Origin: Saccharothrix obliqua
GTDB lineage: Bacteria > Actinomycetota > Actinomycetes > Mycobacteriales > Pseudonocardiaceae
Assembly (NCBI RefSeq): GCF_019375475.1
Contig: NZ_JAHXGQ010000002.1
Coordinates: 806,001 to 870,000, forward strand
Length of the DNA: 64,000 bases
Direction of reading: 5' to 3'
The first letter of the stretch is position 1. Each line of letters opens with the position of its first letter. The notes beneath the pieces were generated by a model that had not been told where the DNA came from, made no database searches, and saw nothing but the letters and a program-made list of their open reading frames with translations. Shown here piece after piece: positions 56,153 to 60,283 of the stretch. Made by a program: the position numbers and the translations under genes.

Positions 56153-56590
56153 ATGGAACCTGTCGTCGGCGCCACCCCGAAGGTGGTCCGCTCCGAGCTG
56201 GAGTGGCGGGAGATCCTCTCGCCCAAGGAGTTCGCCGTGCTGCGCCAGGCGGGCACCGAACCCGCCTGGACCGGCGAGTACACCGACACCAAGACCGAGG
56301 GCGTCTACTCGTGCCGCGCGTGCGGCGCGGAGCTGTTCCGCAGCGACACCAAGTTCGACTCGCACTGCGGCTGGCCGTCGTTCTTCTCCCCGCTCGCCGC
56401 GGACTCGGTGATCCTGCGCGAGGACCGCTCACACGGAATGGCGCGCACGGAGGTGCTGTGCGCGACGTGTCACAGCCATTTGGGCCACGTCTTCGAGGGT
56501 GAGGGCTACGCCACTCCGACGGATCAGCGCTACTGCATCAACAGCGTCAGTTTGCGTCTGGTCGAAACCACCGGCGGTCCGACAGACTGA
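56153..56590 (+). CDS. msrB: peptide-methionine (R)-S-oxide reductase
   Basis: The product has 145 residues. Zinc ligands C54, C57, C103 and C106, the GWPSF motif (73-77), HSHLGHVF (107-114) and catalytic C128 in RYCINSV are all present. It reduces methionine-R-sulfoxide in proteins. The following micro-ORF begins 44 bases after the stop and may be on the same transcript. Confidence 0.96.
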   Translation: MEPVVGATPKVVRSELEWREILSPKEFAVLRQAGTEPAWTGEYTDTKTEGVYSCRACGAELFRSDTKFDSHCGWPSFFSPLAADSVILREDRSHGMARTEVLCATCHSHLGHVFEGEGYATPTDQRYCINSVSLRLVETTGGPTD

Positions 56591-56634: not shown

Positions 56635-56700
56635 ATGCGCATCTTCAAGGGCACCGACGGCGAGGGTTCGGGCGGCGTGGACGGCGCGTCGTCGTCCTGA
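56635..56700 (+). CDS. 21-residue micro-ORF with strong ribosome binding site
   Basis: GAGGGAGGA lies five bases before the ATG at 56635. The peptide begins MRIFKGTDGEGSGG and ends GASSS. It is Gly/Ser/Asp-rich, with no cysteine. It sits between msrB and the TIGR04222-type operon. The ribosome binding site is the best reason to call it translated. It may be a peptide, a leader ORF that controls downstream genes, or a chance ORF. Confidence 0.5.
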   Translation: MRIFKGTDGEGSGGVDGASSS

Positions 56701-56769
56701 CCCCGCGCGGCGGCAACCCTAAGGTTTGCTAAAGCGCTCTTGTCGGGGTGTGGCCTGACCCACACGATT

Positions 56770-56810
56770 ACCCCCTGCGCCGGTATCGCCGGGCAGGGCT
56801 CGCAGGGGGT
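56770..56810 (+). promoter_or_regulatory. stem-loop that would mask the ribosome binding site of the first TIGR04222-type gene
   Basis: ACCCCCTGCG (56770-56779) pairs perfectly with CGCAGGGGGT (56801-56810), and CCGG at 56780-56783 with CCGG at 56789-56792. The 3' arm holds the AGGGGG ribosome binding site for the GTG at 56816. Melting or ligand binding could switch translation of the operon. Confidence 0.6.
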
Positions 56811-56815
56811 GGACC

Positions 56816-57718
56816 GTGGAGCGACCGTGGGGTCTGTCAGGCCCGGAATTCCTTGAGCTGTACTGGATCGCGCTGGCCGTCGCAGTGGCGGTCGCGATCT
56901 TCGTCCGGGTGCGCCCGCGGCGGGCGCCGGTCGGTTCCCCCGCGGACGTGCCCGGACTCCACGACATCGCCTTCCTGACCGGCGGTCCGCGCCGGGTCGT
57001 CGAGACGTCCGTGGCGTCGTTGATCGAGTCCGGCGCGCTGCGCCCGGCGCGGGACGGCGCGGTGCGGGTGGTCGGCTCCCCCGTCCCGTCGAACCCGGTG
57101 GACGCGGCCGTGCTCGCCGACGCCCGCCGTTACCGGTACCGGACGCTGGCGCTGCTGATCGCCGCGGTGACCGACCAGGACCCGCCGCGCCTCGTGGGCG
57201 ACCGGCTGGTGGAGCGGGGTTACCTGGTGGCGCCGCGCGTGGTGCGCCGGGCGGTGCGCTGGAGCCTGGCGCCGATGGCGCTGGTCGCCGCGGTCGGCGT
57301 GGTGCGCTGGGTGAACGGCGTCGCGATCGGCGCGCCGGTCGGCTGGCTGTCCCTGCAACTCCTGCTCACCGGCGTGCTGATCGCCTTGGGCCGCAAGACG
57401 AAATCCGTCCACCGCACCGTGCTGGGCAACCGCGCGGTGGCGGCGGCGCGCACCGGGGGTGGTGCGGCGGCCGGCCAGGCCGGCGAGTCCTGGCCGGTCG
57501 CCCTCGGTGGCTTCGAGGCGCATCCGAACATCCCGCTGCGCGCGGCGGCCCGCCGGGTGGTCGGGCTGCGGGTCCGCGCCAGGTCGGCCGCCGACGGCTC
57601 GCCGGTGCTCATCGCGGGCACCACGGTCGGGACGTCCTGCGGCAGCGGGTCGTCTTGCGGCAGCGGGTCGTCGTGCGGTGGTGGCGGCGGCGGGTGTGGC
57701 GGCGGTGGCGGCGGCTGA
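56816..57718 (+). CDS. TIGR04222-type membrane protein with C-terminal Gly/Ser/Cys array (candidate MNIO substrate)
   Basis: The product has 300 residues. WGLSGPEFLELYW (5-17) is the TIGR04222 start motif, followed by a transmembrane helix (about 17-32). A helical region and two more hydrophobic segments (about 148-165 and 177-192) follow. The last 30 residues have cysteines at 275, 281, 287 and 294, spaced 6-6-7, each in SSCG or GCG context. This pattern is a known C-terminal feature of TIGR04222 proteins. Followed by a paralog and a DUF692 iron oxygenase, the tail is a likely site of modification. Function unknown. Confidence 0.75.
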   Translation: MERPWGLSGPEFLELYWIALAVAVAVAIFVRVRPRRAPVGSPADVPGLHDIAFLTGGPRRVVETSVASLIESGALRPARDGAVRVVGSPVPSNPVDAAVLADARRYRYRTLALLIAAVTDQDPPRLVGDRLVERGYLVAPRVVRRAVRWSLAPMALVAAVGVVRWVNGVAIGAPVGWLSLQLLLTGVLIALGRKTKSVHRTVLGNRAVAAARTGGGAAAGQAGESWPVALGGFEAHPNIPLRAAARRVVGLRVRARSAADGSPVLIAGTTVGTSCGSGSSCGSGSSCGGGGGGCGGGGGG

Positions 57719-57828
57719 GACCCGCGGCGGCGTGGTGACCGCCGGCACGCGCGGAACCGATCGGGCTGGTCAGCGCGTCCCAGCGGGGCGCGGCCGGTGG
57801 GTGGTCGCCGAGCGGGCGGAAGGGGACC

Positions 57829-58608
57829 GTGGTGGCTGCTTCCCGGGTGTCGGCAGCGGTGAACCCGGCGGTGGGGCTGCGTGCCGAGGAGCTGGGCTTC
57901 CTCGCGGGTGGGCCGGGGCGGGCGGCGGAGGTGGCCGTGGTGTCGTTGCTCGCGTCGCGCTCGGTGCGGGTGTCCCGCGAGGGCCTGGTCAGCCCGGTGC
58001 GCCAGGTGGTGCCCGGCACGCCGCTGGAAGCGCTGGTGCTCCGGTCCCTGCCGCGTCCGCTGGGCGAGCTGGTCGCGGCGGTGGCGCGTGGTCCGGAAGT
58101 CGGGTCGCTGCGGCGCGGGCTGGTCGAGCGCGGGCTGGCGCGGTCGGCGGCGGTGCGGTCGGCGGTGGCGGCGGTGCGCGTGCTGGTGCTGGTGGACGCC
58201 TTCGTGTTGTTCGTGCTGGCCATGGCCGACGTGGTGGCGCCCTGGGTGTTCTTCGCCGGGCTCATCGCCTCGCTGACGGCCGTGGTCGTGCTGGGACGCG
58301 TGGCCCGGCCGTTGACCGCCTCCGGGCGGGCGGCGGTGCGGTGGTCGCGCGGCTCGGTCACGACCCGCGACTGGCGGGTGCTGGTCGCCTGCCACGGTCT
58401 GCTGGGCCGGTACGGCGGTCGCCCGGTGTGGGAGGTGGTGGGCATCGCGCGCACCGCGTCGGCGACGCTGAAGCGGCGCCGGGCGGCGAACCGCTCGGGT
58501 GGTGGTTCGTCGTGCGGTGGTTGCGGCTCCTCCTCGGACGGCGGCTCGTCGTGCGGTGGCGGCGATTCCTCGTGCGGTGGCGGGTGCGGTGGTGGCGGCG
58601 GTGACTGA
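57829..58608 (+). CDS. second TIGR04222-type membrane protein with Cys-rich tail
   Basis: The product has 259 residues from GTG 57829 after GGAAGGGG. It shares the arrangement of its neighbour: an N-terminal ELGFLAGGPGRAAEVAVVSLL segment like the first protein's IAFLTGGPRRVVETSVASLI (each partly quoted), two transmembrane segments (about 125-145 and 148-165), and a C-terminal Gly/Ser/Cys tail with cysteines at 229, 232, 242, 249 and 253. It lacks the WGLSG start motif. It ends 15 bases before the MNIO gene. A tandem duplication with divergence is likely. Confidence 0.75.
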   Translation: MVAASRVSAAVNPAVGLRAEELGFLAGGPGRAAEVAVVSLLASRSVRVSREGLVSPVRQVVPGTPLEALVLRSLPRPLGELVAAVARGPEVGSLRRGLVERGLARSAAVRSAVAAVRVLVLVDAFVLFVLAMADVVAPWVFFAGLIASLTAVVVLGRVARPLTASGRAAVRWSRGSVTTRDWRVLVACHGLLGRYGGRPVWEVVGIARTASATLKRRRAANRSGGGSSCGGCGSSSDGGSSCGGGDSSCGGGCGGGGGD

Positions 58609-58623
58609 CCGCCGGGGAGAGGG

Positions 58624-59421
58624 GTGCGGGTGAAGCTCGGGGTGGGCATCGGCTGGCGGGCGGAGATCGACCTGACCGTGGAGCGGCTCGACGTGGACTT
58701 CGTCGAGGTGGTGGCGGAGAACCTGCACGTCGGGCACCTGCCGGAATCGGTGCTGCTGCTGCGCGAGCGGGGCGTGCCGGTGCTGCCGCACGCGGTGTCG
58801 TTGTCGCTGGGCGGCGCGGAGCCGGTGGACCCGCGCCGGGTGGCGCACCTCGGCGCGCTGGCGGAGGCGCTGGACGCGCCGTTCGTCAGCGACCACGTGT
58901 GCTTCGTCCGCGCGGGCGGCCTGGACTCCGGGCACCTGATGCCGCTGCCGCGCACCCGCGACGCGCTGGACGTGCTGGTGGCGAACGTCCGGTCCGCGCA
59001 GGCCGACCTGCCGGTGCCGCTGGCGCTGGAGAACGTGGCGGCGTTGCTGGAGTGGCCGGACGGCGAACTCACCGAGGGCGAGTTCCTGGCGGAGCTGGTG
59101 GAGCGCACCGGCTGCCTGCTGCTGGTGGACGTGGCGAACCTGTACGCGAACGCCCGCAACCTGGGCACCGACGTGGACCGGTTCCTGGACGAGATCCCGT
59201 TGGAGCGCCTGGCGTACGTGCACGTGGCGGGCGGTGTCGAGCACCAGGGCGTCTACCACGACACGCACGCCCACGCCGTGCTGCCGGAGGTGCTGGACGT
59301 GCTCGCCCGCCTGCGTGAGCGCGTGGACCCGCCGGGTGTGCTGCTGGAGCGCGACGACGACTACCCGTCGGACGCGGACCTCGCGGGCGAGCTGGCGGCC
59401 ATCCGGGCGGTGCTGGGGTGA
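58624..59421 (+). CDS. DUF692 family multinuclear non-heme iron oxidative enzyme (MNIO)
   Basis: The product has 265 residues, a TIM-barrel enzyme of the MbnB/TglH family. Candidate metal ligands are H56 ([11 protein letters not shown]), D90/H91 (SDHVCF), E136 (LENVA), D169 ([11 protein letters not shown]), H200 (VHVAGG), H215 (DTHAH) and E242 (LLERDDDYP). MNIO enzymes use an iron cluster and oxygen to modify cysteines or nearby residues of ribosomal peptides, as in methanobactin, 3-thia-glutamate and bufferins. It is 15 bases after a gene with a Cys-rich tail and overlaps the partner gene by 4 bp. Confidence 0.92.
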
Positions 59422-59762
59422 CGGAGCCGCAGCGGGAGCGGTTGGCGGCGGCGCAGGCCGGGTTGCTGCGCGCACTGCTCGCCGACGGCACGCCGCCCGC
59501 CGGGTTCGACCCGGAGCGGCTGCGGGTGGAGGCGCGGTCGCTGCTCAACAAGCGGCGTGGTGTGGTGGCGGCGTTGCGGCCGGACGTGGCCGCCGAGCTG
59601 GCCGACCGGTTCCGCCCGCTGTTCGACGAGTACGCCCGCGCGCACCCCCGCCGCGACGGGACGCGGTTCCGCGAGGACGCCGCCGCGTTCGCCGAGTGGG
59701 CCACCGCCCGCGGTGAGCTGACGCCGCCGCGCAGGCGGCGCTGGTGGCGGCGCGGGACCTGA
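59418..59762 (+). CDS. small MNIO partner protein (DUF2063-like)
   Basis: The product has 114 residues from a GTG overlapping the MNIO stop (GTGA). [14 protein letters not shown], then [23 protein letters not shown] and [12 protein letters not shown] match the helical pattern of the DUF2063-like partners (TglI/MbnC-type) that bring the substrate to MNIO enzymes. It is shorter than a typical DUF2063 protein. Role as a substrate-recognition subunit is inference from context. The C terminus is strongly basic ([10 protein letters not shown]). Confidence 0.7.
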
Positions 59763-59806
59763 CGGGTCCGCGCAACCCGACCGCCCGGCCGTTCCGTCCC
59801 ACCGGC

Positions 59807-60283
59807 ATGCGCAGAGCGATGGCGGCCGTCCTGCTGCTCGTGACGGCCTGCGGGTCGACCCCCGAGCAGGTGTGCACGGCGATCGGCGTGCCGGTGGGCG
59901 TCGGGGTGGACGTGCGGTCGGCGGGGGTGGCGACGGGCGCCCTGGAGGTCTGCTGGGACGGCCGGTGCACGACGCGGCCGCTGGCGTTGTGGCCGTCGAG
60001 CCGGGTGGTCGGCGGCACGTGCGCCGGGACCGCGCCGGAGGACGTGTGCTCGGCGAGCGCCGAGCCGGACGGCGGCCTGCACGGCTACGCGGACGTGCCG
60101 GACCTGCCGGTGCGGCCGGTCGTGGTGAAGCTGCGGCTGGCCGACGGCACGGGGGCGACCGTGCTGGACCGGCAGGTGGAGGCGACCCCGAAGCTCGTCC
60201 GACCCGGCGGCCCGGAATGCGGCGGCGGTGGCGCGCAGCTGAACCTCGCCGTCGCCGCGGACGGGTCGGTCACGGCGACCTGA
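59807..60283 (+). CDS. small secreted lipoprotein after the MNIO operon
   Basis: The product has 158 residues. The ATG at 59807 gives a short lipoprotein signal (MRRAMAAVLLLVTAC, lipobox VTAC); an ATG four codons later is possible. The mature part is beta-rich with seven further Cys residues (VCTAI, EVCWDGRC, GGTCAG, DVCSAS, PECGGG), likely disulfide-bonded. No family recognised. It is 44 bp after the partner gene on the same strand and could belong to the operon. Confidence 0.65.
   Translation: MRRAMAAVLLLVTACGSTPEQVCTAIGVPVGVGVDVRSAGVATGALEVCWDGRCTTRPLALWPSSRVVGGTCAGTAPEDVCSASAEPDGGLHGYADVPDLPVRPVVVKLRLADGTGATVLDRQVEATPKLVRPGGPECGGGGAQLNLAVAADGSVTAT

Follow-up and report, generated by a model that had tools for sequence, protein, structure and literature searches.

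In a 64,000-nucleotide stretch of the Saccharothrix obliqua genome (the window; the source assembly is 8.04 Mb in 49 contigs), we found two neighbouring TIGR04222 membrane proteins that end in cysteine-bearing Gly/Ser tails, followed on the same strand by an MNIO enzyme and a short DUF2063-like partner. When genomes were compared, cysteine arrays in such tails went with the MNIO, which is the new observation here, and the sequence comparisons make it likely that the tails are MNIO substrates. An earlier sequence-only reading of this DNA had proposed that the MNIO probably acts on the tails of full-length membrane proteins and not on short leader-core peptides, and we retain that proposal because the arrays track the MNIO and because gene order and partner are conserved. 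The best explanation as a whole, in which the tails are modified, lie on the cytoplasmic side of the membrane and hold metal, is one in which we have moderate confidence. The features at its centre are:

56816..57718, + strand: TIGR04222 membrane protein, A-type, 300 aa (TIGR04222, 136.4 bits)
57635..57715, + strand: A-type Cys tail, SCGSGSSCGSGSSCGGGGGGCGGGGGG, with four Cys (from the sequence)
57829..58608, + strand: TIGR04222 membrane protein, B-type, 259 aa (TIGR04222, 71.8 bits)
58498..58605, + strand: B-type Cys tail with five Cys (from the sequence; TLKRRRAANRS directly ahead)
58624..59421, + strand: MNIO (MbnB_TglH_ChrH) enzyme (PF05114, 5.5e-82)
59418..59762, + strand: short DUF2063-like partner (PME-type 2), 114 aa (DUF2063, 0.014; homologues)

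The coordinates and frames given in the sequence-only reading hold, and both membrane open reading frames (ORFs) exceed the TIGR04222 cut-off of 43 (136.4 and 71.8 bits). The MNIO start lies 15 bp past the B-type stop, as first described, and the GTG start of the partner overlaps the MNIO stop (GTGA). The cysteines had been called near-regularly spaced, which fits the A-type tail (6, 6, 7) and does not fit the B-type tail (3, 10, 7, 4). The GTG start of the A-type gene agrees with an N-terminus conserved among relatives, M..PWGLSGPEFL. The closest named relatives of the locus are Saccharothrix, the top one being S. tamanrassetensis with 73% identity across the A-type protein.

We examined a sample of 150 genomes of the same family, 82 with TIGR04222 above the cut-off and 79 with MNIO. 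Of the listed 150 TIGR04222 matches, 123 have an MNIO within 8 kb, and in all 123 the TIGR04222 gene is upstream on the same strand. The earlier reading had named a general lack of MNIO neighbours among TIGR04222 genes as the result that would speak against it, and these counts show that most of the listed matches do adjoin an MNIO. Seen from the enzyme, TIGR04222 is present in the fetched stretch of 77 of the 79 MNIO loci; the exceptions are G422, at a contig edge, and G326, where MNIO and partner of this kind were detected at the locus (L143) with no TIGR04222 match. A DUF2063-like partner is found at most 1.5 kb downstream in all 79 MNIO loci of this kind (77 genomes).

To score arrays, we counted a Cys when Gly, Ser or Cys made up at least 70% of the ten residues around it. 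In a class sample of 394 genomes, 102 had TIGR04222 and 97 were scored; the genomes within this and the family sample are phylogenetically non-independent. As scored, 56 MNIO genomes had an array and 17 had none, compared with 1 and 23 of the genomes lacking MNIO (Fisher 1.5e-10). The single array-bearing genome without MNIO, G511, has an MNIO start (76% identical, residues 5-36) that runs off the end of the same contig, and we therefore moved it to the MNIO group; arrays are then found in 57 of 74 MNIO genomes as compared to 0 of 23 without MNIO. The same trend is seen by genus, where at least one genome has an array in 19 of 20 genera with MNIO and in 1 of 11 without, that one being the genus of G511. 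When only genomes with Gly/Ser-rich tails are considered, arrays are found in 55 of 56 with MNIO and in 1 of 7 without, which is again G511. Genomes that lack MNIO may retain Gly/Ser/Asp tails free of Cys. In the family sample, 75 of 77 MNIO genomes and 2 of 5 MNIO-less genomes have an array; a TIGR04222 protein with two or more Cys among the final 60 residues is found in 76 of 77 MNIO genomes, and the five MNIO-less genomes gave counts of 3, 4, 0, 0 and 1.

The 185 TIGR04222 records from MNIO genomes of the family sample comprise 158 near the MNIO and 27 elsewhere. Of these records, 154 carry two or more Cys among their final 60 residues. Tail Cys density in this subset is 0.072, as compared to 0.0033 for the remaining sequence, a contrast that is partly built in since the records were selected by tail Cys. 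These tails hold 666 Cys, mostly followed by Gly (487) or Ser (158) and often preceded by Ser (357); the commonest spacing is 6 (142 cases; range 3-18), and 66 tails have exactly two residues past the last Cys. The final Cys-Gly-Gly of the A-type tail is invariant in 28 aligned diverse members, and the last A-type Cys is present in at least 90% of a separate set of 44. Tails of this kind are also found away from the enzyme, with at least two tail Cys in 21 of the 27 distant records.

The enzyme belongs to the MNIO family (PF05114, 5.5e-82). We found that H56, H91, E136, H200, D213, H215 and E242 are invariant in all 82 aligned MNIO rows, among them the locus copy of the window and one genome's gene counted three times; these seven positions align with 3bww and 8hci, and we take them to be the likely metal ligands. 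The window MNIO scores 198.6 bits on the BufB model NF050167, below its cut-off of 310, and so falls outside the bufferin type. In a tree of 92 rows (89 different), for which the program warns of long branches, the 82 rows form one group (support 99/98) apart from seven bufferin-type rows (100/100). Four of those seven were scored on BufB, three at 338-349 bits and one at 305. The partner matches DUF2063 at 0.014, under the Pfam gathering score, and thus lacks the DUF2063 signature of PME-type 1; 11 of 26 partner homologues match DUF2063, the best at 0.0014. A search of Protein Data Bank (PDB) chains with the partner profile gave no match at E up to 1. A structural tie of the PME-type 2 partner to 3dee comes from the passages of Antoine et al. 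2025 (PMC12452194) that concern this group, on which our statements about that paper rest.

Several observations weigh against the tails being the substrate. The array criterion was fixed only after the tails had been seen and after a plain Cys count, and that plain count (two or more Cys among the final 60 residues) separates the class-sample records less well, with 61 of 89 with MNIO and 7 of 24 without; in the MNIO-less records most such Cys lie outside Gly/Ser runs. Of the 158 family records that adjoin the MNIO, 25 carry at most one tail Cys. In the family genomes G391 and G399, arrays are present and no MNIO was found in assemblies that are fragmented (~480 and ~370 contigs, respectively). 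Antoine et al. describe a considerable fraction of the clusters with Cys-containing TIGR04222 as lacking an MNIO (PMC12452194, passages on TIGR04222). Finally, 17 class-sample MNIO genomes have TIGR04222 and no array. One array-less genome, G651, has as its sole MNIO a protein of 366 bits on PF05114, within the range of the bufferin-type ones. Fifteen of the 17 belong to one genus, g8, and in 14 of these 15 the MNIO precedes the TIGR04222 gene on the same contig. No substitute Cys-array substrate was found in the 7 stretches inspected from the 15 g8 genomes; two flagged frames were dismissed because by eye they are unlike Gly/Ser tails.

Where the tails lie was judged from charge and hydrophobicity. 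A-type proteins have a short N-terminus, a first transmembrane segment (TM1), a DUF2207_C-like domain, a TM2-TM3 pair and the Gly/Ser tail. In 44 aligned A-type proteins the chain is net basic after TM1 (44/44), before TM2 (43/44) and after TM3 (44/44). These basic flanks place the domain inside and the chain inside past TM3; beyond that point the A-type signals are mixed. B-type proteins lack TM1 and consist of a two-TM hairpin, a basic stretch and the Gly/Ser tail. In an alignment of the window protein with 38 homologues, for which we chose the start codons, an N-terminal hydrophobic stretch is found in 0 of 39 and a TM-like fourth stretch in 0 of 38. The B-type chain is net basic before TM2 and after TM3 (39/39 each) and directly ahead of the tail (33/39), whereas the loop is net basic in 1 of 39. 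The positive-inside rule relates basic flanks to the cytoplasmic side. Because TM1 is missing and the hairpin flanks are basic, the B-type tail should, by this rule, be cytoplasmic. For the tails overall we give a cytoplasmic position an even chance, and a better one for the B-type.

Two features of the A-type proteins and one published prediction point the other way. In 35 of 44 A-type proteins a net basic charge is also seen in the TM2-TM3 loop, although the loop carries fewer charges (mean K+R 1.2 vs 3.3-4.8), and a fourth hydrophobic stretch is borderline (median 1.47), reaching at least 1.6 in 10 of 44. Antoine et al. predict the tails to be periplasmic or extracytoplasmic (PMC12452194, passages on topology), a prediction from which the cytoplasmic reading departs. 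In this alternative, the tails would be MNIO substrates that cross the membrane after modification in the cytoplasm, as published for the group. That prediction favours such export, as does a fourth A-type stretch that is TM-like in 47 of 122 proteins of a larger set, with basic residues ahead of it and a Pro-Asp motif behind. We nevertheless consider export unlikely, while giving it more weight than the other alternatives: the B-type proteins have no TM1 (0/39), their fourth stretch is never TM-like (0/38) and their flanks place both ends inside, and the two types have tail type, operon and enzyme in common. The tails had been called surface-exposed in the sequence-only reading, a description that does not suit the B-type, with no TM1 and basic flanks in 39 of 39, and for which the A-type signals are mixed.

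Searches with the remainder of the protein gave a few matches to GPP34 (Golgi phosphoprotein 3), in 3 of 44 A-type proteins (best 1.8e-6) and 1 of 39 B-type proteins (0.025), which hint at the fold of the putative cytoplasmic domain. A PDB search with the A-type profile gave 24 matches, nearly all to the Gly/Ser-rich end and mostly linkers, and it yields no domain relative.

A second alternative is that unmodified thiols of the Cys tails bind the metal while the MNIO and its partner act on another substrate. Modification of the tails is inferred, and the 15 g8 genomes with MNIO and TIGR04222 lack a Cys array, which implies a different substrate for some of these MNIOs. Even so, this explanation is improbable, since by the array criterion 23 of 23 MNIO-less class-sample genomes have no array, and the other Cys-containing product noted, the lipoprotein, is found in only 17 of 48 loci (no systematic search for further Cys-rich genes at the locus was made). 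That the tail Cys are a by-product of low-complexity drift, with the linkage as inherited synteny, is very improbable: a single step separates Gly, Ser and Cys codons, tail length and Cys positions differ among relatives, and the sampled genomes are related while the counts ignore kinship, but the Gly/Ser-rich tails of MNIO-less genomes are array-free (6/6 without G511), the last Cys-Gly-Gly is invariant in the 28 diverse members, and the contrast stands across 31 genera.

Taken together, these data suggest that the MNIO and its DUF2063-like partner would oxidise the tail cysteines of the two preceding TIGR04222 proteins and, in many genomes, that the same enzyme would also oxidise further TIGR04222 copies encoded elsewhere. 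The rest of the TIGR04222 protein would then serve as a membrane anchor, made of a DUF2207 C-terminal-related cytoplasmic domain and a two-helix hairpin, and the tails would most likely remain together with the enzyme on the cytoplasmic side. The resulting modified thiols, tethered as an array to the membrane, may hold copper or another soft metal. By analogy with bufferins and captophorins (passages of PMC12452194 and PMC13097082), we propose both the metal binding and the type of modification, and the chemistry is perhaps 5-thiooxazole, as in other MNIO products. We suggest more tentatively that the modified tails remain cytoplasmic as permanent anchored metal-binding groups, neither exported nor cleaved, and so form an intracellular metal buffer built by the chemistry of ribosomally synthesised and post-translationally modified peptides on integral membrane proteins. 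If the tails are modified, MNIO chemistry reaches whole membrane proteins beyond small secreted peptides, in many actinomycetes, and cytoplasmic tails would contradict the published topology. The small gene set (substrate, enzyme, partner) suits reconstitution.

The order on the + strand is msrB, a 21-codon ORF, the A-type and B-type TIGR04222 genes, the MNIO, the DUF2063-like partner and a putative lipoprotein. The flanking features are:

56153-56590, + strand: msrB, methionine sulfoxide reductase B (SelR, 1.8e-49)
56635-56700, + strand: 21-codon ORF, MRIFKGTDGEGSGGVDGASSS (ribosome site and sequence)
59807 (ATG)..60283, + strand: putative lipoprotein with a VTAC lipobox-like motif (from the sequence)

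The msrB motif occurs in 43 of the 48 named loci and in 55 of the 79 family stretches. The 21-codon ORF, which ends GTDGEGS[GS]GVDG..SS, is retained in 35 of 48 related loci, and in 13 aligned copies 12 of its 21 codons show synonymous variation only and 4 show residue changes. By these comparisons the ORF, which lies between msrB and the A-type gene, encodes a conserved micropeptide; we rejected it as an MNIO substrate since it contains no Cys and is kept in 35 of the 48 loci. Between it and the A-type gene, a non-coding stretch at 56715-56765 (AACCCTAAGG.TTGCTAAAG...GGGGTGTGG) is conserved in 9 aligned sequences and is perhaps a promoter. For the putative lipoprotein ORF, no family reached its cut-off. 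It had been taken for a constant member of the system, which does not agree with a homologue in only 17 of 48 related loci; it is probably a lineage-limited neighbour outside the system.

Further copies were seen in relatives and in the same genome. Saccharothrix loci L190-L200 and L203 have a middle TIGR04222-like paralogue whose tail lacks Cys and ends like GGWFAGGWLAAQWLEGDDGGDF; no copy of it is seen in the window, and most Lentzea loci have a Ser/Cys-rich paralogue at that position. In the genome of the window there are a third, weak TIGR04222 match (C44:522169-522678, L003; 30.5 bits, below the cut-off of 43) and a second, partial MNIO match (C4:115158-115613, L005/L151) with no partner match within its 11-kb stretch.

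The sequence-only reading had called the system undescribed. That TIGR04222 tails are MNIO substrates is already proposed in print (Antoine et al. 2025, PMC12452194), while no product is described in the literature we found: a search judged by titles and the beginnings of abstracts gave no experimental product for the TIGR04222-MNIO group. A TIGR04222 peptide is named as a predicted ribosomal product in an excerpt of PMC5183585. The group is thus a published prediction without a known product. In the passages of PMC12452194 on this group, TIGR04222 proteins make up 40% of more than 1,000 signal-less Cys proteins encoded ahead of MNIO genes, and those subsets that have a Gly/Ser/Cys C-terminus are put forward as possible MNIO substrates. 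More than a quarter of the TIGR04222 proteins are without C-proximal Cys there, and a third of the TIGR04222 genomes are without MNIO (Table 3: 1372 with TIGR04222, 490 of them MNIO-less). The clusters are described as having no DUF2063 signature and PME-type 2 partners in at least 10%, and the protein used for partner model A has 115 residues and comes from Saccharothrix sp. NRRL B-16314.

The window locus resembles that group in its TIGR04222 domain, its C-proximal Cys in a Gly/Ser/Cys region, the neighbouring MNIO and the short PME-type 2 partner. A partner homologue in our NRRL B-16314 locus (L197) is 115 aa counted from Met, the same length as model A (the letters of the accession were not compared). 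Unlike the loose association in those passages, the arrays here closely track the MNIO; all 79 loci of this family have the partner, for which those passages give at least 10% of clusters, and the B-type tail appears to be cytoplasmic rather than periplasmic. DUF2207 proteins are also related, since their C-terminal domain is recognised by TIGR04222 (for example at 3.8e-9 in a protein whose DUF2207_C match is 3.8e-33); they have similar Gly/Ser tails, but no Cys array in the tails compared, and a large N-terminal domain, and they would fit the same topology arrangement. Bufferins and captophorins (Buf1, Buf2 and EGKCG peptides, with BufB-BufC and FonB-FonC) share with this locus an MNIO, a DUF2063-related partner and repeated Cys, often as Cys-Gly. 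Their precursors carry Sec signals and their partner is of the DUF2063-RRE (RiPP recognition element) kind (PMC12452194, passages on these families). In contrast to short, Sec-signalled bufferin precursors, the TIGR04222 proteins of 259 and 300 aa are membrane-anchored, the B-type having no N-terminal hydrophobic stretch, and they are accompanied by a 114-aa partner and an MNIO that scores below the BufB cut-off.

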